Shown: piece by piece, positions 12,263-30,615 of the stretch
How positions within the stretch are numbered: position 1 is the stretch's first letter
Layout: every line of letters starts with the position of its first letter
Assembly (NCBI RefSeq): GCF_003355475.1
Contig: NZ_CP031356.1
Location: 3,100,001-3,164,000, forward strand
Direction: 5' to 3'
Source: Brachybacterium saurashtrense
Lineage (GTDB): Bacteria; Actinomycetota; Actinomycetes; Actinomycetales; Dermabacteraceae
DNA: 64,000 nucleotides
Notes under the pieces: generated by a model
Told to the model about the DNA's origin: nothing
The model's input: only the letters and a program-made list of their open reading frames with translations
The model's database searches: none
Made by a program: the position numbers and the translations under genes

Positions 12263-12356
12263 ACCGCACGCCCTTCCCGCCCCCATCCCGATGATTAGCT
12301 AGGCTATGCATATCCGGGGTGCTCGCCCCGGACCGCGGACGAGGGGAGACGCAGCG

Positions 12357-13748
12357 ATGACCGCCATCTGGTGGGTGCGGGACGACCTCCGGCTCCATGA
12401 CAACCCCGCCCTCGCGGCGGCGGCCGCCGCCGGGGACGTGATCGCCGTGCACGTGGACGAGCGGATCGACGGGGTCCGTGCCGCGGGCGGCGCCTCCCGC
12501 TGGTGGCTGCACCACTCGCTGCGGCGCCTGGGCGACTCCCTGCGGGAGCACGGCGTCCCGCTGGTGCTGGCGGACGGCGATCCCGAGCAGGTGATCCCGC
12601 AGCTGGTCCGGGAGACCGGCGCCGAGCAGGTGCAGTGGAACCGGCGCTACCACCGGCCCCGTCGTGATCTCGACGCGCGGCTGAAGAGTGCGCTGCGTGC
12701 GCAGGGCGTGCGTGCCGAGAGCAGCGACGGCTTCCTGCTGCACGAGCCGTGGACGATCGCGACGCAGAAGGGCGAGCCCTACCGCGTCTACTCCGCCTTC
12801 GCCCGCGCCTGCCGCGATGCCGCCCCGCCCCGCCCGGACGACGCCGCCGCGCCGAACCTGTCGGGACCCGCCGACGAGGTGCACGCCGCCGGCCACGCGA
12901 TGGCGCAGTGGCGGCGCGCGGAGCACCTCGAGGAGATCCTGGACCGCCGCGGCTGGGTGCCGACGGCCCCGGACTGGGCGGAGGGGCTGCGGGAGACCTG
13001 GACGCCGGGGGAGGCCGGGGCGTGGGACCGGCTGGACGCGCTCGAGGACGTGCTCGACGACTACGCGCGCCACCGCGACCGGCCCGCGCTGCAGGGCACC
13101 TCACGCCTCTCCCCGCACCTGCGCTTCGGCGAGATCTCCCCGCACCAGGTGTGGCGGCGCAGCCGGGAGCTGGGCCCGGGGGAGGGGCCGGAGACGTTCC
13201 GCGACGAGCTGCTGTGGCGGGAGTTCGCCTGGCACCGGCTGTTCCACCTGCCCGAGCTCGCCACGCGCAACGTCCGCTCGCAGTTCGACGCCTTCGACTG
13301 GCGCGAGGACGAGGACGACCTCCGGGCCTGGCAGCGCGGGCGCACCGGGATCGACCTGGTCGACGCCGGGATGCGGCAGCTGTGGCGCACCGGCTGGATG
13401 CACAACCGGGTGCGCCTGGTGGTGGGCTCCTTCCTCACCAAGAACCTGCGCCTGCACTGGCGGCACGGCGAGGAGTGGTTCTGGGACACGCTGGTGGACG
13501 CCGACGAGGCCGCGAACCCCTTCAACTGGCAGTGGGTGGCAGGCACCGGGGACGATGCGGCGCCGTACTTCCGCGTGTTCAACCCCGAACGGCAGCAGGA
13601 GCGGTTCGACCCCGAGGGCGAGTACGTGCGCTCCTGGCTGCCCGAGGTCGGCACCGGCGACAGGCCCGCCCCGCTGGTGGACCTGCGCGCCTCCCGGCGG
13701 GACGCCCTCGCCGCCCATCAGCGGCTCTCGGGGCAGGCCGACGAGTGA
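12357..13748 (+). CDS. phrB: Deoxyribodipyrimidine photolyase (CPD class I type)
   Basis: Uses FADH- and blue light to split cyclobutane pyrimidine dimers. N-terminal alpha/beta antenna domain (AIWWVRDDLRLHDNPAL, residues 3-19) and C-terminal FAD domain with TSRLSPHLRFGEISPHQVW, LLWREFAWHRLFHLP, GIDLVDAGMRQLWRTGWMHN and NPFNWQWVAGTGDDAAPYFR; the tryptophan-rich pattern is that of photolyases. Length 463 residues. The ATG at 12357 follows GAGGGGAGAC; the earlier in-frame ATG at 12306 overlaps a possible -10 (TAGGCT, 12300-12305) and is rejected. Ends 12 bases before the convergent oxidoreductase gene. Confidence 0.93.
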   Translation: MTAIWWVRDDLRLHDNPALAAAAAAGDVIAVHVDERIDGVRAAGGASRWWLHHSLRRLGDSLREHGVPLVLADGDPEQVIPQLVRETGAEQVQWNRRYHRPRRDLDARLKSALRAQGVRAESSDGFLLHEPWTIATQKGEPYRVYSAFARACRDAAPPRPDDAAAPNLSGPADEVHAAGHAMAQWRRAEHLEEILDRRGWVPTAPDWAEGLRETWTPGEAGAWDRLDALEDVLDDYARHRDRPALQGTSRLSPHLRFGEISPHQVWRRSRELGPGEGPETFRDELLWREFAWHRLFHLPELATRNVRSQFDAFDWREDEDDLRAWQRGRTGIDLVDAGMRQLWRTGWMHNRVRLVVGSFLTKNLRLHWRHGEEWFWDTLVDADEAANPFNWQWVAGTGDDAAPYFRVFNPERQQERFDPEGEYVRSWLPEVGTGDRPAPLVDLRASRRDALAAHQRLSGQADE

Positions 13749-13760
13749 CCCGGGTGGGCC

Positions 13761-15410
13761 TCACACCACGGTGAACCGCACCGTGTGCCAGCCGCTGGCG
13801 CCGTCGGGCGCGGGCGCGGCCCGCTGGGAGGTCTGCAGCGTGCCCTCGCCGTCCGTGGCCCGCACCGTCACCGAGTGGTCGCCGGGCTCGGCGTCCCCCC
13901 AGCGCAGCGACCACTGCACCCAGGTGTCGGCGGTGACCTCGGCGCCCAGCTGCGCCTCGCGCCACTGCCCGTCGTCGATCCGCACCTCCACCGCGGAGAC
14001 GCCGCGCTGCTGCGCCCAGGCGGTGCCGCCCAGCATCACGGCGCCGTCCGCGTCCGCCTCCAGCTCCGCGAAGGAGCGGGGCACGTCCACCCGCGAGGCG
14101 GTCTTGATCGGGCCGCGCTCCGACCAGCCGCGGGTGGACCAGTAGGCGACGTCGTCCTCGAAACGGGTGACCTTCAGCTCCGTCAGCCACTTGGTGGCCG
14201 AGACGTAGCCGTACAGCCCCGGCACCACCATCCGCACCGGGTAGCCGTGCTCCGCCGGCAGCGGCTCGCCGTTCATGCCCACGGCGATCAGGGAGTCCCT
14301 GTCGTCGGTGAGCGCCTCCAGCGGGGTGGAGGCGGTGAACCCGTCGATCGAGCGGGAGAGCACCATGTCGGCGCCGTCCTGCACCCCGGCGCGCTCCAGC
14401 AGGGTGCGCACCGGCACCCCCAGCCAGGTCGCGTTGCCGGCGAGGTCCCCGCCCACCGCATTGGAGACGCAGGTGAGCGTCACGTGCGCCTCCACCATCG
14501 GCTCCTCCAGCAGCGCGGCGAGGTCGATCTCGAGCTCCTGGTCCACCAGACCGTGGATCCGCAGGCTCCAGGCAGCAGGGTCCACGCGCGGCACCGCGAG
14601 GGCGGTGTCGATCCGGTAGAAGTCCTGGTTCGGGGTGAGGTAGCGGGGCATGCCCTCGAGCTCCACCTGCGCCTCGGCAGGGATCGGCGGGGCGGAGGTG
14701 CGGGGCGCGGGCAGCACGTACCGGGCGGCGCGGGCGGCGACCTCCCGGCTCGCGGTGATGCCGCGGCCCACCGCGGCGCCCACCACGGCGAGCACCCCCA
14801 CGGCGCCCACGCCCAGCAGCGCCCGCCGACGGGTCCAGCGCGCCCGGGCCTCGTCGGCCGAGCCGGTCGTGCCTGCCCCGTCGGCCGCACCTGCCCCGTC
14901 GGCCGTGCCGGTCCCCTCGGCGGCCCCGACCCCGTCGGCCCCCGGGGCGCCCTCGGTCCCGGAGGCCGCCGGGCCGTGCACGGTGCGCAGGAGCAGCAGC
15001 AGGGCCGGGACCGCCACGAGCGTGCCGAACAGGGTGGGGAGGACGTCCAGCGCGGTGTTCTGGGCGCGGGTCAGCACCAGCGCCATCGCCAGCGCCCCCA
15101 GCCCCGCCAGCAGCACGGCGGCGAGAGCGCGCCGCGCCGCCCCGAGCCGGCCGATCAGCGCCGTGAGCACCAGGTACACCGCCCCCATGGAGGCGAACAG
15201 CACCAGCTTGTCCCAGGTGCCGAACAGCCGGATCACGAGATCCTTGACGCCCGGCGGGACGATGTCCACGAAGGCGCCGCCCACCGCGACGAACGGCGCG
15301 GAGGAGGAGCTGAAGGCGAGCGAGGCCAGCTCCGCGACGGCCACCAGCACCAGGCCGGCCACCACCCCGGCGACGGCGGACCATCGAGCGGCCCCGCGCG
15401 GCGCGGTCAT
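13761..15410 (-). CDS. Membrane-anchored sulfite-oxidase-type molybdopterin oxidoreductase
   Basis: The 549-residue protein has five predicted membrane segments in the first 225 residues (four before residue 150, one at about 206-225 after an Ala/Gly/Thr linker). The outside domain is the SUOX-type molybdopterin fold: YLTPNQDFYRID, WSLRIHGLVDQELEID and LTCVSNAVGGD, whose cysteine is the expected molybdenum ligand, followed by the Mo-cofactor dimerisation-like domain (about 430-549). The substrate is unknown; relatives repair oxidised methionines or handle sulfite. Start ATG overlaps the rskA stop by one base (TGATG), so it belongs to the sigK operon. Confidence 0.85.
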   Translation of the reverse strand: MTAPRGAARWSAVAGVVAGLVLVAVAELASLAFSSSSAPFVAVGGAFVDIVPPGVKDLVIRLFGTWDKLVLFASMGAVYLVLTALIGRLGAARRALAAVLLAGLGALAMALVLTRAQNTALDVLPTLFGTLVAVPALLLLLRTVHGPAASGTEGAPGADGVGAAEGTGTADGAGAADGAGTTGSADEARARWTRRRALLGVGAVGVLAVVGAAVGRGITASREVAARAARYVLPAPRTSAPPIPAEAQVELEGMPRYLTPNQDFYRIDTALAVPRVDPAAWSLRIHGLVDQELEIDLAALLEEPMVEAHVTLTCVSNAVGGDLAGNATWLGVPVRTLLERAGVQDGADMVLSRSIDGFTASTPLEALTDDRDSLIAVGMNGEPLPAEHGYPVRMVVPGLYGYVSATKWLTELKVTRFEDDVAYWSTRGWSERGPIKTASRVDVPRSFAELEADADGAVMLGGTAWAQQRGVSAVEVRIDDGQWREAQLGAEVTADTWVQWSLRWGDAEPGDHSVTVRATDGEGTLQTSQRAAPAPDGASGWHTVRFTVV

Positions 15411-16387
15411 CACAGCACCCCGCTCGCGATCGGCTTCATCGTGGGCTGCTCGGAGCCGCCGGCGGGCTCGATGGTGAGGCCGATCTCGACCCCGTCGGGC
15501 AGCGCGCCGTCGTGCATCATCGACTCCTGCGGATCCTCGAGCATCCCGGCGCTGACGATGTCCTCGCCGTCGATCATCCACAGCTGGTACGTCTCGCTGG
15601 CGGGGAGCGCGGGCAGCCCGGCGGACTGCACGATCATCGCCTGCTCCTGGCGCGAGTACATCAGCTGCAGCTCGCCGCCCTCGGCGGAGGGGAGGATCAT
15701 GTGCGCGGCGTCGTCCGCGGCCATGATCTCCGAGAGCATCGCGCGCTCCTGCTCCGCGCCCTCCTGCGCGGAGGCGATCGCCTCGAGGGAGGCGCGGGCC
15801 TCCTGCTCGGCGAGGCGCTCGCTGTTCCACATGCTCACCCCCACCACGGTGCTCACCAGCAGCGCCGCGGCCGCGGCGGCGGTCCACCGGCTGCGCCGCA
15901 CGCTGGCGCGGTAGCGGTCCAGCGGGACCACCTCCGCGGGCGGGCGGGCGTCGGCCGACGAGCGCGCGTCGGGCGCGATGCCCGGCGTGGAGCCCGGTGT
16001 GGAGTCCGGCGCGCCTGCCGTGGGGATGTCGGGTGTGGAGCCGGGCGCGGCTGCCGTCGGGACACCGGGGGAGGTGCCGGCCGCGGCGCCAGCCCCGGCC
16101 TCCGGGGTCGAAGCGTCCGCGGTCGCAGCGTCTTCGTCCGCCTCCTCGGCGAGCGGGGAGAGCTGCCGGGTGGTGGCGATGCGGGCCATCACCGCGGCCT
16201 TCAGCTCCGGGCGCGGGGCCAGCGGGGTGAGGCTGCCGGCGAGCTCGCCGGCGGTCTCCTCGAAGGAGAGCGCCTCGGCGGCGGAGTCAGGATCCTCGGC
16301 CAGGTGGCGGCGCATCCGCTCGCGCTCCTCGCCGTCCAGGGCGTTCAGCGCCCAGGCGCCGGTCATCGTGTGCTTCTGCTCGTTCAC
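15410..16387 (-). CDS. rskA: Anti-sigma-K factor RskA
   Basis: Membrane anti-sigma factor that holds SigK until released by regulated proteolysis. N-terminal sigma-binding helices (GAWALNALDGEERERMRRHL, residues 10-29) lack the HxxxCxxC zinc motif, as in RskA proteins. A Pro/Ala/Thr linker with imperfect repeats of the type TPGxAPDS precedes one transmembrane helix (WTAAAAAALLVSTVVGVSMW, about residues 173-192) and an extracytoplasmic RskA domain with ETYQLWMID. Starts at GTG 16387, overlapping the sigK stop (GTGA). 325 residues, longer than usual because of the linker. Confidence 0.9.
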   Translation of the reverse strand: MNEQKHTMTGAWALNALDGEERERMRRHLAEDPDSAAEALSFEETAGELAGSLTPLAPRPELKAAVMARIATTRQLSPLAEEADEDAATADASTPEAGAGAAAGTSPGVPTAAAPGSTPDIPTAGAPDSTPGSTPGIAPDARSSADARPPAEVVPLDRYRASVRRSRWTAAAAAALLVSTVVGVSMWNSERLAEQEARASLEAIASAQEGAEQERAMLSEIMAADDAAHMILPSAEGGELQLMYSRQEQAMIVQSAGLPALPASETYQLWMIDGEDIVSAGMLEDPQESMMHDGALPDGVEIGLTIEPAGGSEQPTMKPIASGVL

Positions 16388-17073
16388 GAGGTCACCCCCA
16401 GCCTGTCCCGCAGCACGATCATGCCGTCCCGGATCCGAGTCTTCGCCGTGCCCACGGGGATGTCCAGGAGGGCGGCGACCTCCCGATGGCTGTAGCCGCC
16501 GAAGTAGGCGAGGCGGATCGCCTCCGACTGCGCGGAGGTGAGCTCGCCCAGCGCCGTGCGCACGCGCCTGCTCTCCACCCTCATGATCCCCTCCTCCTGC
16601 ACGTCCACCACCTGCTGCTCCAGCTGCAGCAGGCCTTCCTCGGAATCGCGGCGCCGGGCCGCCTCGCTCGAACGCACCGTGTCCACCGCGCGGCGATGGG
16701 CGATGGTGCACAGCCATCCCTGGGCGCTGCCGCGATGGGCGTCGAACCGGGTGGCCTGCCGCCAGATCTCCACGAACACCTCCTGCATCACCTCCTCGCT
16801 CATCGCCACGTCCCGCACCACCCGGCGGATCAGGGCGAACAGCATCGGGGCGACCTCGTCGTACAGACGGGAGAAGGCGTCCTCGTCGCCGAGGGCGATG
16901 CGGTGCAGCAGAGCGGCCGAGGACGGCGGCGCCGCCTCCCCGCCCGGCAGCGCGTGCAGACCGATCTCGCCGCCGGGCGGCGCGGCCTGCCCGGGATCGC
17001 CGCCGGGTGGCGGGCCCAGGGCGGCCTCACCGGGCCGCGTGGGCGGCTCGGCGGGGGAGTGCTCGGGAGGCAT
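16384..17073 (-). CDS. sigK: ECF sigma factor SigK
   Basis: Group 4 sigma factor. Region 2 spans about residues 58-125 (DEDAFSRLYDEVAPMLFALI, then EVMQEVFVEIWRQATRFD and GWLCTIAHRRAVDTVR); region 4 is at about 165-222 (LTSAQSEAIRLAYFGGYSHR, EVAALLDIPVGTAKTRIRDG). Pairing with rskA identifies it as SigK-type. The first 50 residues are a Pro/Gly-rich, probably disordered extension. GGAAGGAG precedes the ATG. In mycobacteria SigK drives fasciclin-domain secreted proteins, and here a fasciclin lipoprotein gene lies directly upstream on the same strand. Confidence 0.92.
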   Translation of the reverse strand: MPPEHSPAEPPTRPGEAALGPPPGGDPGQAAPPGGEIGLHALPGGEAAPPSSAALLHRIALGDEDAFSRLYDEVAPMLFALIRRVVRDVAMSEEVMQEVFVEIWRQATRFDAHRGSAQGWLCTIAHRRAVDTVRSSEAARRRDSEEGLLQLEQQVVDVQEEGIMRVESRRVRTALGELTSAQSEAIRLAYFGGYSHREVAALLDIPVGTAKTRIRDGMIVLRDRLGVTS

Positions 17074-17100
17074 ACGGCGTCACTCCTTCCAGTGGGACCT

Positions 17101-17139
17101 GTCGGGCCGGGGCGGACGGTGCGCCCGCCCCGGCCCGAC
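17101..17139 (-). terminator. Strong hairpin between the fasciclin gene and sigK
   Basis: GTCGGGCCGGGGCGG (17101-17115) is perfectly complementary to 17125-17139, leaving a nine-base loop. It lies 26 bases after the fasciclin stop and 28 bases before the sigK start. It can act as a terminator or an attenuator; no U-tract follows on the minus strand. Confidence 0.65.
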
Positions 17140-17165
17140 CGGGACGCCTATGCAGTGTGCGCCGC

Positions 17166-17882
17166 TCAGCCCTGCTCCGCCATGCTCGGCGGCATCAGAA
17201 CGGTATCGATCATGTACACGGTGGCGTTCTGCGTGGTGACACCGCCGCAGATCACGGCCGCACCGTCGACCATGAGGTCGTCGCCCTCACCGGTGACCTC
17301 GAGATCCTCGCCCTGCACCGTGGTGTGGGTGCCGGCGACCTCGTCCGGCGAGAGCTGCCCGGGCACCACGTGGTACGTGAGCACGCCGCTGAGCGCATCG
17401 GCATCCTCGGCGAGGGCCGTGAGGTCCTCCTCGGGGATCGCGCCGAAGGCGTCGTCCACCGGTGCGAACACGGTGAACTCGTCCCCGTCGAGGGTGTCGG
17501 CCAGGTCCACCTCCGGGTTCAGCTCGCCGGAGACGGCGGAGGTGAGAGTGGTGAGCATCGGGTTGTTCGAGGCGGCGACGCTGACCGGATCCTGCGCCAT
17601 GCCCTCCACCGAGCCGGCACCGTCCGGCACCGTCTCGGCGTAGTCCGCGCAGCCGGCGCCCACGAGGTTCGCCGCCGGATCCATCGAGTCCATGTCGTCC
17701 GAGTCGTCCATGCCGCCCATGTCGCTGGGACCGTCCATCGACTCCTCGGCGGTCTGCCCGCCGCCGTCGGACATCGGCTCCTCGTCCATCGAGCCGGAGT
17801 CCATCCCGCCGGAGCACGCGCTCATCAGCGCGACGGTGGCGGCCAGAGCCCCCAGCCGGGGAAGCATCCTGTGAGTTCTCAT
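17166..17882 (-). CDS. Fasciclin-domain lipoprotein
   Basis: Secreted, membrane-tethered FAS1 protein of 238 residues. The signal peptide ends in the lipobox ALMSAC, with the lipidated Cys at residue 23. A Met/Ser/Asp/Gly-rich linker (about 24-75) leads to one FAS1 domain (about 95-235) with [12 protein letters not shown], the motif [12 protein letters not shown] and [14 protein letters not shown]1 domains mediate adhesion or protein contacts. AAGGAGAT precedes the ATG. Its position before sigK, together with a SigK-like promoter at 17960-17986, matches the mycobacterial MPT70/MPT83 situation. The Met-rich linker could bind copper or be an oxidation target; that is speculation. Confidence 0.9.
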
Positions 17883-17959
17883 GACGATCTCCTTCGTGAG
17901 GCTGCGGTCGCTCCGGCGGGTCCGGGGCGGGACGTCCCGGGAGGGGCGTCGCATCAGGG

Positions 17960-17986
17960 GTTCGGAGCGGAGCGCCGGATGGATGG
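17960..17986 (-). promoter_or_regulatory. Candidate SigK promoter of the fasciclin gene
   Basis: Read on the minus strand, CCATCC (17986-17981) is followed after 15 bases by CCGAAC (17965-17960). This resembles the CCATCC / CCGAAT elements reported for mycobacterial SigK. A second overlapping CCATCC is at 17982-17977. The predicted transcript would have a leader of about 70 bases. Assignment is by resemblance only. Confidence 0.5.
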
Positions 17987-20439: not shown

Positions 20440-21372
20440 TTAGAGGCTCGCAAGTGCCGCGTCGGCGGTCGCCGGCACGGTCTGGTGGCGATGGTAGTTC
20501 TCCTCGAGCTCGACGGGCGGGATCATGCCGATCTCGCCGTGCAGGCGGCGGTGATTGAACCAGTCGATGTACTCCGCGGTCGCGATCTCGAGCTCGTCGA
20601 TGTTCTTCCAGGGCCCGTGGTTGCGGACCAGCTCCGCCTTGAAGAGCGAGTTGAAGGCCTCGGCCAGGGCGTTGTCATAGGAGTCGCCGGTCGAGCCGAC
20701 GGAGGCGACCGCTCCGGCTTCCGCGAGGCGCTGGGTGTAGCGGACGGCGACGTACTGGACGCCCTTGTCGCTGTGGTGCGTGAGCCCGGAGACGTCGTGG
20801 CCTGCGTACTCACGGGTCCAGATCCCCATCTCCAGCGCGTCCAGGGCGAGGTCGGTCCGCAGGGACTGCGACAGCTGCCAGCCGACCACGCGGCGGGAGA
20901 ACACATCGATGACGAACGCGGCATACACCCAGCCCGCGAACGTGCGGCAATACGTGATGTCCGCGACCCATAACTGGTTCGGGGCCGTCGCGGTGAAGTC
21001 GCGTTCGACCAGGTCAGCGCGAGTGTCTGGGCCGTCGCCGGGGCGTGTGGTCCGTGGGCCCTTCTCTCGGCTGATGCCGCGCAGCCCGTCGGCTCTCATC
21101 AGTCGTTCCACGGTGCAGCGCGCGACCGCGATGCCTTCTCGGCGCAGCTGAGCGTGGAGCTTCTTCGCGCCGTAGACCCCGAAGTTCTTCGCGTGCACGC
21201 GCCGGATCTGGACCAGCAGTTCCTTGTCCCGGATCGCTCGCTTCGAGGGCGGGCGGGTCTTGAACGCGTAGTAGGTGCTCGGCGCGATCTGGGTGCCCGC
21301 TGCGGTGAGCGTGCGGCAGATCGGCCAGGCGCCGAACTCGTGCTTGTGCTGGTCGATGAACGTCACGATCAT
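20440..21372 (-). CDS. IS3-family transposase OrfB (DDE integrase domain)
   Basis: 310 residues. After an HTH_21 region (RDKELLVQIRRVHAKNFGVY) comes the rve catalytic core with the DDE triad: D in LWVADITYCRTF, D in HHSDKGVQY and E in DNALAEAFNSLFKAE, and the C-terminal FNHRRLHGEIGMIPPVE. ATG overlaps the orfA stop (ATGA), but the active product is expected to be an OrfAB fusion made by frameshifting. All catalytic residues are present. Confidence 0.93.
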   Translation of the reverse strand: MIVTFIDQHKHEFGAWPICRTLTAAGTQIAPSTYYAFKTRPPSKRAIRDKELLVQIRRVHAKNFGVYGAKKLHAQLRREGIAVARCTVERLMRADGLRGISREKGPRTTRPGDGPDTRADLVERDFTATAPNQLWVADITYCRTFAGWVYAAFVIDVFSRRVVGWQLSQSLRTDLALDALEMGIWTREYAGHDVSGLTHHSDKGVQYVAVRYTQRLAEAGAVASVGSTGDSYDNALAEAFNSLFKAELVRNHGPWKNIDELEIATAEYIDWFNHRRLHGEIGMIPPVELEENYHRHQTVPATADAALASL

Positions 21373-21686
21373 CGCGGTGGGCGGTCGAGCTCCGCTGCGA
21401 AAAAAGCCGAGGCCGACTTCAGAATCGCGTTCGCCCGGCGCAGCTCGCGCACTTCCTTCTCCAGCTCAGCGAGCCGCTCGGCGTCGCTGGTCGTGGTCCC
21501 GAGTCGGCGGCCCTCGTCAATCTCGGCCTGCACGACCCAGTTCCTCAACGTTTCGGCCTTGATCCCGAGCTGCTCGCCCACACGGCGGAACGTTCCCGAC
21601 CTCGTCGCTGGATCCCGTCGCGCGTCCACGGCCATCCTCGTGGCCCTCTCCCGAAGTTCATCGGGGTACTTCCTCGGTGCTGCCAT
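21369..21686 (-). CDS. IS3-family transposase OrfA
   Basis: 105 residues: an N-terminal helix-turn-helix (MAAPRKYPDELRERATRMAV, then VGEQLGIKAETLRNWVVQAE) and a C-terminal leucine-zipper-like coiled coil (RLAELEKEVRELRRANAILK). It binds the IS ends and multimerises the transposase. ATG 21686 fits the conserved start; an upstream ATG at 21695 would add three residues. Confidence 0.9.
   Translation of the reverse strand: MAAPRKYPDELRERATRMAVDARRDPATRSGTFRRVGEQLGIKAETLRNWVVQAEIDEGRRLGTTTSDAERLAELEKEVRELRRANAILKSASAFFAAELDRPPR
21399..21405 (-). other. Programmed -1 frameshift site in the IS3 element
   Basis: On the coding strand six T then C (T TTT TTC in the OrfA frame) lie near the end of orfA. 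A -1 slip here enters the orfB frame, which is open from the slip site to the orfB ATG. This would make the OrfAB transposase, the standard strategy in the family. Confidence 0.65.
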
Positions 21687-21738
21687 GCTCCTCATCCTCC
21701 CGTGGGATCAGAGCCTCCACCAGACCCGGGGCGATTCA

Positions 21739-28936: not shown

Positions 28937-29045
28937 GATCTCTCCGGGAAAAAGTCCAATCCGGGTCCCGATGTGCTCCGAACCCTTCCTGGAACGCCGC
29001 CCCCGACGGCCGCATGGTCGTCCGGTGTTCGACGAAGGAGACATC

Positions 29046-29825
29046 ATGCGCACGACGACGAAGCGACTGGTCCCCCTCTTCGCAGCCACGGCGATGGTCG
29101 GCATGCTCGGCGCGTCCGGCGTCGCGATGGCCGATGATCACGGCGGCGGCGAGGGCGCGACCACGCTCGAGGCCCACCTCACCGAGCTGAACGACTCCGG
29201 CGCCTCGGGCACCGCGTGGATCACGCTCGAGGGCAACGAGGTCACCGTGAAGCTGGACAGTTCCGGCATGCTCGCGGACGCCCCCCACGCCCAGCACATC
29301 CACATCGGCGGTGCGAACGAGTGCCCCGATCCGTCGATGGAGGGCACCGGGGTGGACGGTGCGATCCGCACCACCGACGCCGCCGACTCCTACGGCGCCG
29401 TGAAGGTCTCGCTGACCAATGACGGCGACACCAGCCCGGACAGCGCCCTGGCCGTGGACCGCTTCCCGGTGGGCGATGCGAGCTATGAGCGCACCCTTGA
29501 GGTGGACGACGAGACGGCCGAGAGCCTGCGCAACGGTGACGGCTCCGTGGTGCTGCACGGCGTGGACCACAACGGCAACGGCACCTACGACGGCGACCAG
29601 GAGTCCGACCTGGATCCGTCGCTGCCCTCCGAGGCGACCGATCCGGCCGCCTGCGGCGCGCTCGAGGTGGCCCAGATGGAGGCATGGCCCGAGGGCGGTG
29701 CCGAGACCGGTGACGGCTCCACCGCTGGCATCGAGCAGTCCGGCGCGATGCTCGCCGGTGCCGGCCTGCTGACCGCCGCCGGTGCGGGCGCGTTCGCGCT
29801 GCGTCGCCGCACGGCCCGGAAGTGA
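29046..29825 (+). CDS. Secreted CHRD-domain protein with C-terminal membrane anchor
   Basis: 259 residues. Signal peptide (residues 1-30, cleavage near AMA-DD), then a CHRD-like domain (about 42-200) with the motif DAPHAQHIHIGG typical of CHRD proteins and a calcium-binding-like DHNGNGTYDGDQESDLD. The C-terminus has a hydrophobic helix (about 232-252) and an RRRTARK tail, the layout of a sorting signal, but I see no LPxTG in front of it. One base separates its stop from the sortase gene, so the pair forms an operon. Start by GAAGGAG upstream. Confidence 0.8.
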   Translation: MRTTTKRLVPLFAATAMVGMLGASGVAMADDHGGGEGATTLEAHLTELNDSGASGTAWITLEGNEVTVKLDSSGMLADAPHAQHIHIGGANECPDPSMEGTGVDGAIRTTDAADSYGAVKVSLTNDGDTSPDSALAVDRFPVGDASYERTLEVDDETAESLRNGDGSVVLHGVDHNGNGTYDGDQESDLDPSLPSEATDPAACGALEVAQMEAWPEGGAETGDGSTAGIEQSGAMLAGAGLLTAAGAGAFALRRRTARK

Positions 29826-29826
29826 C

Positions 29827-30615
29827 ATGACCCCTCAGGGAACCCCCCGACGGAACGGCGGTCGCCGCACGGCGGCCGCCGTTCTGGCGGCCCTCGCCGT
29901 GGTGGGCGCGGCCCTGCTGGTGTTCGCCCTGACCCACCAGGTGGGGGCGCCGCCGGAGCCCCCGCTGCGCACGGCCGGAGCACCGTCGGACGGTGCCGGT
30001 GCGCAGTCGTCGGACGACGGCGGGGAGCCGACGGAGCCGGTAGGTGCCGACCCGACGGAGCCGGCCGACGCCGAGCCGTCGGCCGTCCCCCGCACCGACG
30101 CGGCGGAGCCCTCGGAGCAGCCGTCCTCCGCGGCACCGGAGGCGAGCGTCGCCGAGGCGCTCCCCGCCTCCACCCCCACCGCGGTGCGCATCGACGCGAT
30201 CGGTGTCGAGGAGCAGGTCTTCCCCATCGGTCTCGGCGAGAACGGCGAGCTGCTCGCCCCGCGCGGCGACCAGGCGGACCTGGCGGCCTGGTTCGACGGA
30301 TCGCCCACCCCGGGCGAGAGCGGCCCCTCGGTGATCGAGGGGCATGTGACCTGGGGCGGAGACCCCTCCGTCTTCTTCGAGCTGGGCGCCCTGGAGGCGG
30401 GGGACCGGATCGAGGTGGACCGCGAGGACGGGACCGTCGCGACCTTCGAGGTGTACGACGCCGTCCGCTATCCCAAGGACGAGTTCCCCACGGTCGCGGT
30501 CTACGGCCGCACCGACGGCCCCGAGCTGCGGCTGATCACCTGCGCCGGTGACCTCGACGAGGACGGCCACCACCTCGACAACACCGTGGTGTTCGCCCGG
30601 CTCGTGGAGGGGTGA
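29827..30615 (+). CDS. Class F sortase
   Basis: 262 residues: an N-terminal transmembrane anchor (TAAAVLAALAVVGAALLVFA, about 14-33), a 90-residue Pro/Glu/Ser-rich spacer, and the sortase domain (about 118-262) with VRIDAIGVEEQVFPIGL, the catalytic His in SVIEGHVTWGG and the catalytic Cys in LRLITCAGD; an Arg-like partner is near the C-terminus (NTVVFARL). Class F sortases are actinobacterial and often lie next to single substrates; the CHRD protein directly upstream is the candidate. Confidence 0.88.
   Translation: MTPQGTPRRNGGRRTAAAVLAALAVVGAALLVFALTHQVGAPPEPPLRTAGAPSDGAGAQSSDDGGEPTEPVGADPTEPADAEPSAVPRTDAAEPSEQPSSAAPEASVAEALPASTPTAVRIDAIGVEEQVFPIGLGENGELLAPRGDQADLAAWFDGSPTPGESGPSVIEGHVTWGGDPSVFFELGALEAGDRIEVDREDGTVATFEVYDAVRYPKDEFPTVAVYGRTDGPELRLITCAGDLDEDGHHLDNTVVFARLVEG

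Follow-up and report, generated by a model that had tools for sequence, protein, structure and literature searches.

Known systems and the locus in Brachybacterium

The mpt83-sigK-rskA cassette is known from Mycobacterium to Yersinia, and in M. tuberculosis a Cys133-Cys183 disulfide tunes the binding of the sigma factor SigK to its anti-sigma factor RskA (PMC7509140). The signal that starts the SigK cascade was, according to that 2020 paper, not yet known. In the ECF16 system, found in Azospira and Brucella, an extracytoplasmic function (ECF) sigma factor drives a Met-rich peptide together with MsrPQ and answers hypochlorite; the Brucella version, BcrS/BcrXQP, comprises an ECF sigma factor, a Met-rich peptide, and a putative methionine sulfoxide (MetO) reductase and is induced by hypochlorous acid (PMC8315932). 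Sco3746 has been described as a dual substrate of the Sec and twin-arginine translocation (Tat) pathways with five helices, in which conserved His residues are predicted to hold two heme b groups (PMC5449189). Here, we analyzed a 64,000-nucleotide stretch of Brachybacterium saurashtrense (NZ_CP031356.1, positions 3,100,001 to 3,164,000; the window), in which sigK and rskA lie between the genes for a fasciclin lipoprotein and for a membrane molybdoenzyme of the sulfite oxidase (SUOX) family.

The four genes are collinear on the minus strand, with SUOX last (Table 1). As in the mpt83-sigK-rskA cassette, an MPT83/70-type fasciclin lipoprotein is combined with SigK, RskA, and a SigK site before the fasciclin gene. 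The locus differs from the published cassette in having SUOX at its end, a SigK without the Cys pair, and a Met-rich linker in the lipoprotein. Neither "oxidoreductase" nor "molybd" occurs in the text of PMC7509140. The cassette is known; the SUOX partner and the Met-rich linker appear to be new, in that no publication naming the fasciclin-SUOX pair or the linker was found among the literature listings searched, although Veyrier 2008 may mention the oxidoreductase earlier. That the locus represents a SigK regulon containing a genuine fasciclin-SUOX pairing is considered highly probable, taken by itself and apart from any reaction of the enzyme.

The collinear order proposed in the original prediction was borne out by the coordinates and by Pfam and NCBIfam profiles. 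Its overlapping stops and starts were found at two of the three junctions, sigK/rskA (4 nt) and rskA/SUOX (1 nt), but not between fasciclin and sigK, which are 92 nt apart. It had also missed an intergenic hairpin and a second promoter with a CHRD-sortase operon at ~29 kb.

Table 1. Coordinates of the features of the SigK locus and its predicted second operon, numbered within the window.
Feature	Position	Strand	Evidence or remark
SUOX-family membrane molybdoenzyme	13761..15410	-	PF00174, E 1.5e-45, 155 bits
rskA, membrane anti-sigma factor, outer domain fairly Met-rich	15410..16387	-	PF10099, E 1.4e-22; NF052375, 153 bits, cut-off 100
sigK, ECF sigma factor lacking the Cys pair of SigK	16384..17073	-	NF007228, 231.4 bits, cut-off 226
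18-bp hairpin between fasciclin and sigK	17101..17139	-	Minimum free energy -65.4 kcal/mol, z -5.94
MPT70/MPT83-like fasciclin (FAS1) lipoprotein, lipobox MSAC	17166..17882	-	PF02469, E 1.1e-26
Met-rich linker, residues 24-77, 8 Met in 54	17652..17813	-	Span from lipobox Cys to next Cys
SigK-type promoter CCATCC-N16-CGAA, end ~75 nt before fasciclin ATG	17958..17986	-	Matrix score 26.1, best in 64 kb
Second SigK-type promoter CAATCC-N16-CGAA, upstream of CHRD gene	28957..28985	+	Matrix score 17.8, second-best in window
Secreted CHRD-domain protein, predicted SigK target	29046..29825	+	PF07452, 29.8 bits, cut-off 24.1
Sortase; ATG at 29827 likelier start	29782..30615	+	PF04203, E 8.3e-21

SigK-type promoters and the predicted regulon

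A weight matrix was built from 22 sites, all in loci outside Brachybacterium. When the 64 kb were resampled 40 times under a first-order Markov model, the best site per resample scored 12.6 +/- 2.2, with a highest value of 19.2, against 26.1 for the site before the fasciclin gene, confirming the SigK-like promoter that had been proposed there. Genome-wide counts were obtained as pattern searches. The pattern CMATCC-N14-YBCGAAY had two perfect matches in the 3.72-Mb single-contig genome, the fasciclin and CHRD promoters, and 40 matches with one mismatch. Because the pattern admits CAATCC, as used by relatives and by the CHRD site, the perfect match at CHRD is partly by design; the fasciclin promoter was identified independently of the pattern, via the matrix. 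A search for the motif elsewhere in the genome, suggested with the original prediction, therefore yielded one further perfect site, before the CHRD-sortase pair.

This pair sits 11 kb from the fasciclin promoter. Among the 20 family loci around sigK (L144 to L163), a CHRD gene was present in 14 and a sortase in 13, and the motif was scored upstream of CHRD in most of the CHRD-bearing loci. The predicted regulon of two operons, both encoding exported proteins, is well supported at the level of genes and promoter motifs. It was also observed that the CHRD-sortase pair adjoins the SigK locus in several Brachybacterium relatives and that in five loci (L145 to L149) it accompanies SigK without fasciclin and SUOX.

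The assignment of a SigK/RskA module held on both the profile scores and the promoter, with the RskA_C domain (PF10099) and NF052375 both above cut-off in the gene beside sigK. As far as sequence allows, the matrix, the genome pattern, and the samples of SUOX genes described below are all consistent with a SigK-dependent motif.

The hairpin between fasciclin and sigK was matched in stability by none of 200 shuffles. When the same gap was folded in 12 other loci, a strong stem of differing sequence was seen in most, as judged by eye. It may be a processing or attenuation element favoring the first gene, or possibly a partial terminator or mRNA stabilizer.

The SigK-RskA switch

Cys columns were matched by position to mycobacteria-like rows, without M. 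tuberculosis protein numbering. At the two columns of the Cys pair, the window SigK has Ala and Arg, and the pair was absent from this protein and from the 14 Brachybacterium SigKs of L150 to L163 (15/15). Across 133 SigK-type sequences, 56 had both Cys residues, 77 neither, and none only one. The pair is common but not universal, hence not defining for SigK. Redox sensing through SigK thiols was accordingly rejected for Brachybacterium, and the "redox-controlled" character originally proposed did not hold in the known mycobacterial sense.

Met accounted for 7.9% of the RskA outer domain in the window, 4.7% in the genus, 3.1% in other loci with fasciclin and SUOX, and 2.3% in loci with neither partner (71 loci). 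A general Met richness of RskA wherever SUOX is present was rejected, as only the window and, to a lesser extent, its genus stand out. On thin evidence, the Met-rich outer domain leaves room for methionine sensing.

Recurrence of the fasciclin-SUOX pair across genomes

SigK (E <= 1e-60) was present in 82 of the 396 genomes of a phylum sample, and fasciclin was found in 58 of these 82 versus 40 of the 314 others. Both were thus present in 58 genomes, SigK only in 24, fasciclin only in 40, and neither in 274 (Fisher p 3e-24, a statistic that ignores kinship). At E <= 1e-50, SigK was found in 22 of 47 family genomes. Neighborhoods were compared for 132 loci and the window (n = 133), of which the family share was 21 (the window and 20 loci, with the G419 locus left out). 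All four genes occurred in the window's order in 11 of the 21, and four were incomplete (L152, L154, L157, L160) owing to a contig end or a weak or broken fasciclin frame. The remaining six (L144 to L149) had SigK without either partner, five of them with CHRD-sortase.

In a named sample of 80 SUOX loci, a fasciclin gene lay within 4 kb in 20. The window's order was also seen in Glutamicibacter (L274, L275), Paeniglutamicibacter (L276), Arthrobacter wenxiniae (L280), and Nesterenkonia (L286, L297). Brevibacterium (L279, L289, L301) had the order SUOX-fasciclin-sigK-rskA, and in Actinomadura (L283, L347) sigK-rskA was divergent from SUOX-fasciclin. Phylum-wide, a fasciclin domain lay no more than 3 kb from SUOX in 28 of 150 cases among the matches listed, which comprised 150 SUOX matches and 137 fasciclin places with some second domains left out. 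Pairs were also found in genomes without a SigK match (G022, G048, G100). In a SUOX tree of 60 rows (6 near-copies removed from 66), adjacency was scattered, with 13 changes, at least 6 of them forced by well-supported branches; because adjacency partly guided the choice of rows, these counts are no rate. Co-inheritance across species, on which the original prediction depended, was therefore observed, the same order or pairing recurring in several genera.

Several loci departed from these arrangements. In a draft genome (L067), fasciclin and SUOX lie beside sigK with the SUOX frame seemingly broken, possibly by sequencing error or decay. In four loci (L033, L079, L084, L278), sigK-rskA is followed by SUOX and no fasciclin gene was found nearby; one of them, from Glutamicibacter sp. 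PS (L278), has two tandem SUOX genes. The genome of Nesterenkonia sp. Act20 holds the four-gene operon (L286). An RskA of this strain, which may or may not be the one encoded in the operon, decreased under UV-B and recovered afterwards (PMC8965627).

SigK motifs upstream of SUOX genes

For a first sample, 40 SUOX loci (L212 to L251) were fetched separately from the sigK loci; the motif cut-off of 15 bits and the sizes of the regions searched were chosen by us. In genomes with SigK, a motif above the cut-off preceded SUOX in 6 of 12 fasciclin-paired genes, or 8 of 12 when sites before the fasciclin gene were also counted, and in 1 of 16 unpaired genes. In SigK-less genomes, it was found before none of 3 paired and none of 9 unpaired genes, and it occurred in 9 of 1,000 random windows. 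In the named sample, of which 78 of 80 loci were kept after two Brachybacterium loci (L272, L273) were dropped, the motif was present in 12 of 18 paired versus 10 of 60 unpaired SUOX genes (p 1e-4); several of the 18 paired loci have sigK close by. Microbacterium, Agromyces, or Leucobacter accounted for nine of the ten motif-bearing unpaired genes. The first sample contains a family, f5, in which fasciclin is beside sigK and SUOX is elsewhere, and this family is probably the same lineage as the motif-bearing set. Given this linkage of fasciclin to sigK with SUOX apart in f5, the motif-bearing unpaired SUOX genes probably belong to the same regulon as unlinked genes.

The lipoprotein and its linker

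The only fasciclin domain found in the 3.72-Mb genome is that of this lipoprotein. Its closest solved structure was MPT70 (1nyo; E 7.6e-56 over residues 72-233), and it resembles MPT70/MPT83 in having a FAS1 domain and a similar N-terminal extension. The Met-rich nature of the lipoprotein was confirmed in the linker, which on direct reading is acidic and without the MXKDX repeat.

Linkers were then compared among 62 fasciclins. Two loci were omitted, L160, in which the contig stops short of the SUOX position, and L067, with the broken SUOX frame, as were seven further fasciclins without a recognized lipobox and matches of <100 bits in the first locus set (L109, L157); one adjacent row (L039) was kept with a linker length of 0 since its domain call starts early. 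Linkers of SUOX-adjacent fasciclins contained 120 Met in 1,539 residues and the others 30 in 743, and three or more Met were present in 21 of 36 adjacent versus 5 of 26 other fasciclins. Family means of linker Met differed (p 0.005), with adjacent above non-adjacent in all five families having both. None of 18 other lipoproteins of these loci had three or more Met in 45 residues. Some linkers contained tandem Met repeats (13 Met in L228, 11 in L226, and 7 in L225), and those of Nesterenkonia Act20 and Pseudokineococcus were of a similar tandem-Met style. The comparison favors the suggestion that the Met-rich lipoprotein is a client of the enzyme; the client role itself remains putative.

The SUOX-family enzyme

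The description of the enzyme as membrane SUOX-type was upheld by five predicted helices and a sulfite-oxidase-fold domain. In the predicted structure (mean predicted local distance difference test score, 76.5), helices spanned residues 5-30, 39-50/53-90, 94-113, 120-144, and 185-227, and the modeled order was four helices, a twin-Arg motif, the fifth helix, an extracytoplasmic molybdenum cofactor (Moco) domain, and a C-terminal dimer-type domain. In an alignment of 18 sequences, R195 was invariant and R194 conserved in at least 90%, both just before helix 5, and the molybdenum ligand C314 was invariant. The five helices, the twin Arg before helix 5, and the C-terminal Moco domain are shared with the Sco3746 family as described in PMC5449189. 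The enzyme thus likely belongs to a dual Sec/Tat-routed family of membrane molybdoenzymes with a wide distribution in the phylum, SUOX homologues being present in at least 163 of the 396 genomes. The nearest named matches were from B. tyrofermentans (70% identity) and B. squillarum.

Proposed mechanism and alternatives

In the proposed mechanism, an extracytoplasmic signal, probably an oxidant, would relieve RskA and free SigK, which would transcribe its own operon and the CHRD-sortase operon, a step for which motif and synteny both speak. Through the hairpin that follows the first gene, the lipoprotein may be kept at a higher level than the regulators. The disordered Met-rich linker of the MPT83-like lipoprotein would act as a sacrificial sink when oxidized to MetO, and its methionines would be re-reduced by the SUOX molybdoenzyme, exported via Tat and tethered to the membrane. 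The layout would work like ECF16 SigF-MrpX-MsrPQ, with unrelated parts, and that system is the model for the putative oxidant signal, Met sink, and MetO reductase reaction. The module and the systems of Azospira (SigF-MrpX-MsrPQ) and Brucella (BcrS/AbcS-BcrXQP), as presented in PMC8315932, share an ECF sigma/anti-sigma pair, an exported protein rich in Met, and an oxidoreductase of SUOX fold. The module is analogous in layout but not a member, because the sigma group, the client scaffold (fasciclin rather than an MXKDX peptide), and the enzyme subfamily (sulfite-oxidase type rather than MsrP) all differ. The whole chain, a small SigK regulon that is autoregulated and serves to defend the envelope against oxidants, with SUOX repairing linker Met, is put forward tentatively, as a reading whose chances fall somewhat below even.

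Several observations weigh against it. The Met-fraction test was weak (p 0.025) when limited to linkers of at least 15 residues. Despite SUOX adjacency, family f7 linkers had 0-2 Met and those of f34 and f48 none, contradicting the idea of the Met-rich linker as a fixed feature of the pair, which was rejected; conversely, f5 fasciclins without an adjacent SUOX carry 2-4 linker Met. The enzyme scored 46.4 bits with the MsrP model NF003767 (cut-off, 207) and 25 bits against the MsrP structure 1xdq, and identity with MsrP was rejected. The MsrP fold was matched at Z 17 over one domain only (residues 233-467), whereas sulfite oxidases were matched over both domains at Z about 26, a structural rank that carries no information on substrate. 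The operon has no MsrQ gene, although no search aimed at MsrQ was made. No heme-type helix His was found to be conserved, as none of the columns preceding residue 388 that are invariant or nearly so in the 18 sequences is a His, in contrast to the His residues reported for Sco3746 in PMC5449189.

The chief rival keeps the regulon and the pair as proposed but has SUOX act on sulfite or on an envelope S- or N-oxide, with the lipoprotein as a docking or adhesion partner and the linker no substrate. It draws on the sulfite-oxidase fold with its C-terminal dimer-type domain, which is shared with SorA and sulfite oxidase, on SorA sulfite dehydrogenase as the top sequence match (E 1.7e-21), and on the existence of pairs with few linker Met. 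The SorA and SoxC models also matched, though below cut-off (113.8 of 600 and 115.8 of 420 bits, respectively), a shortfall that counts against this rival. In SorA, an Arg five residues past the molybdenum-ligand Cys binds sulfite; also against the rival, in pairwise alignment this Arg falls in a gap (CVSNAV versus CSGNSR). The enzyme further differs from SorA and sulfite oxidase in its added membrane domain and its different active-site loop. With the SorA, SoxC, and MsrP cut-offs all missed and the SorA Arg in a gap, any substrate assigned to SUOX from sequence is putative. A different substrate would leave the Met enrichment unexplained. This alternative is regarded as possible but rather doubtful.

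In an improbable alternative, copper(I) would be bound by the acidic, Met-rich linker, and the regulon would answer copper rather than oxidized methionine. Met-rich periplasmic copper proteins exist, and MxxM-like spacing occurs in the linkers, yet these are nearly His-free. The conserved neighborhoods, in which the four families alone are widely shared among genera and other clusters were only partly annotated, showed no copper gene.

Least probable, and rejected on the scattered adjacency, the tree changes, and the motif frequencies, is that SUOX is a passenger co-transcribed as a downstream gene without a functional tie to fasciclin, for although 122 of the 150 SUOX genes among the matches listed have no fasciclin domain within 3 kb, the pair recurs in differing orders and orientations, also in genomes without a SigK match, and the unlinked pair carries a SigK motif of its own.

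Neighboring genes

A photolyase-like gene at 12306-13748 on the plus strand, recognized by eye, is convergent with the SUOX stop. It seems to have been added here, because the conserved genes that come next lie ~1.4 kb closer in several relatives. Two open reading frames at 20440-21695 on the minus strand look, by eye, like an IS3-type transposase pair.

Implications

On the reading in which SUOX repairs linker methionines, Actinobacteria may have evolved their own cycle of Met sink and repair on a fasciclin scaffold under SigK, in parallel to ECF16/MrpX/MsrP. The SigK regulon would then answer oxidation of exported Met, and the mycobacterial MPT83/MPT70 antigens would descend from the sink protein of a system of this kind; this extension is more speculative than the chain itself and at present rather unlikely to hold in full. 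If true, methionine protection outside the cytoplasm would have a second architecture, unrelated to the first. For the SigK cascade, the widespread, repeatedly assembled fasciclin-SUOX partnership points to a concrete enzyme and to candidates for its substrate and for the signals.

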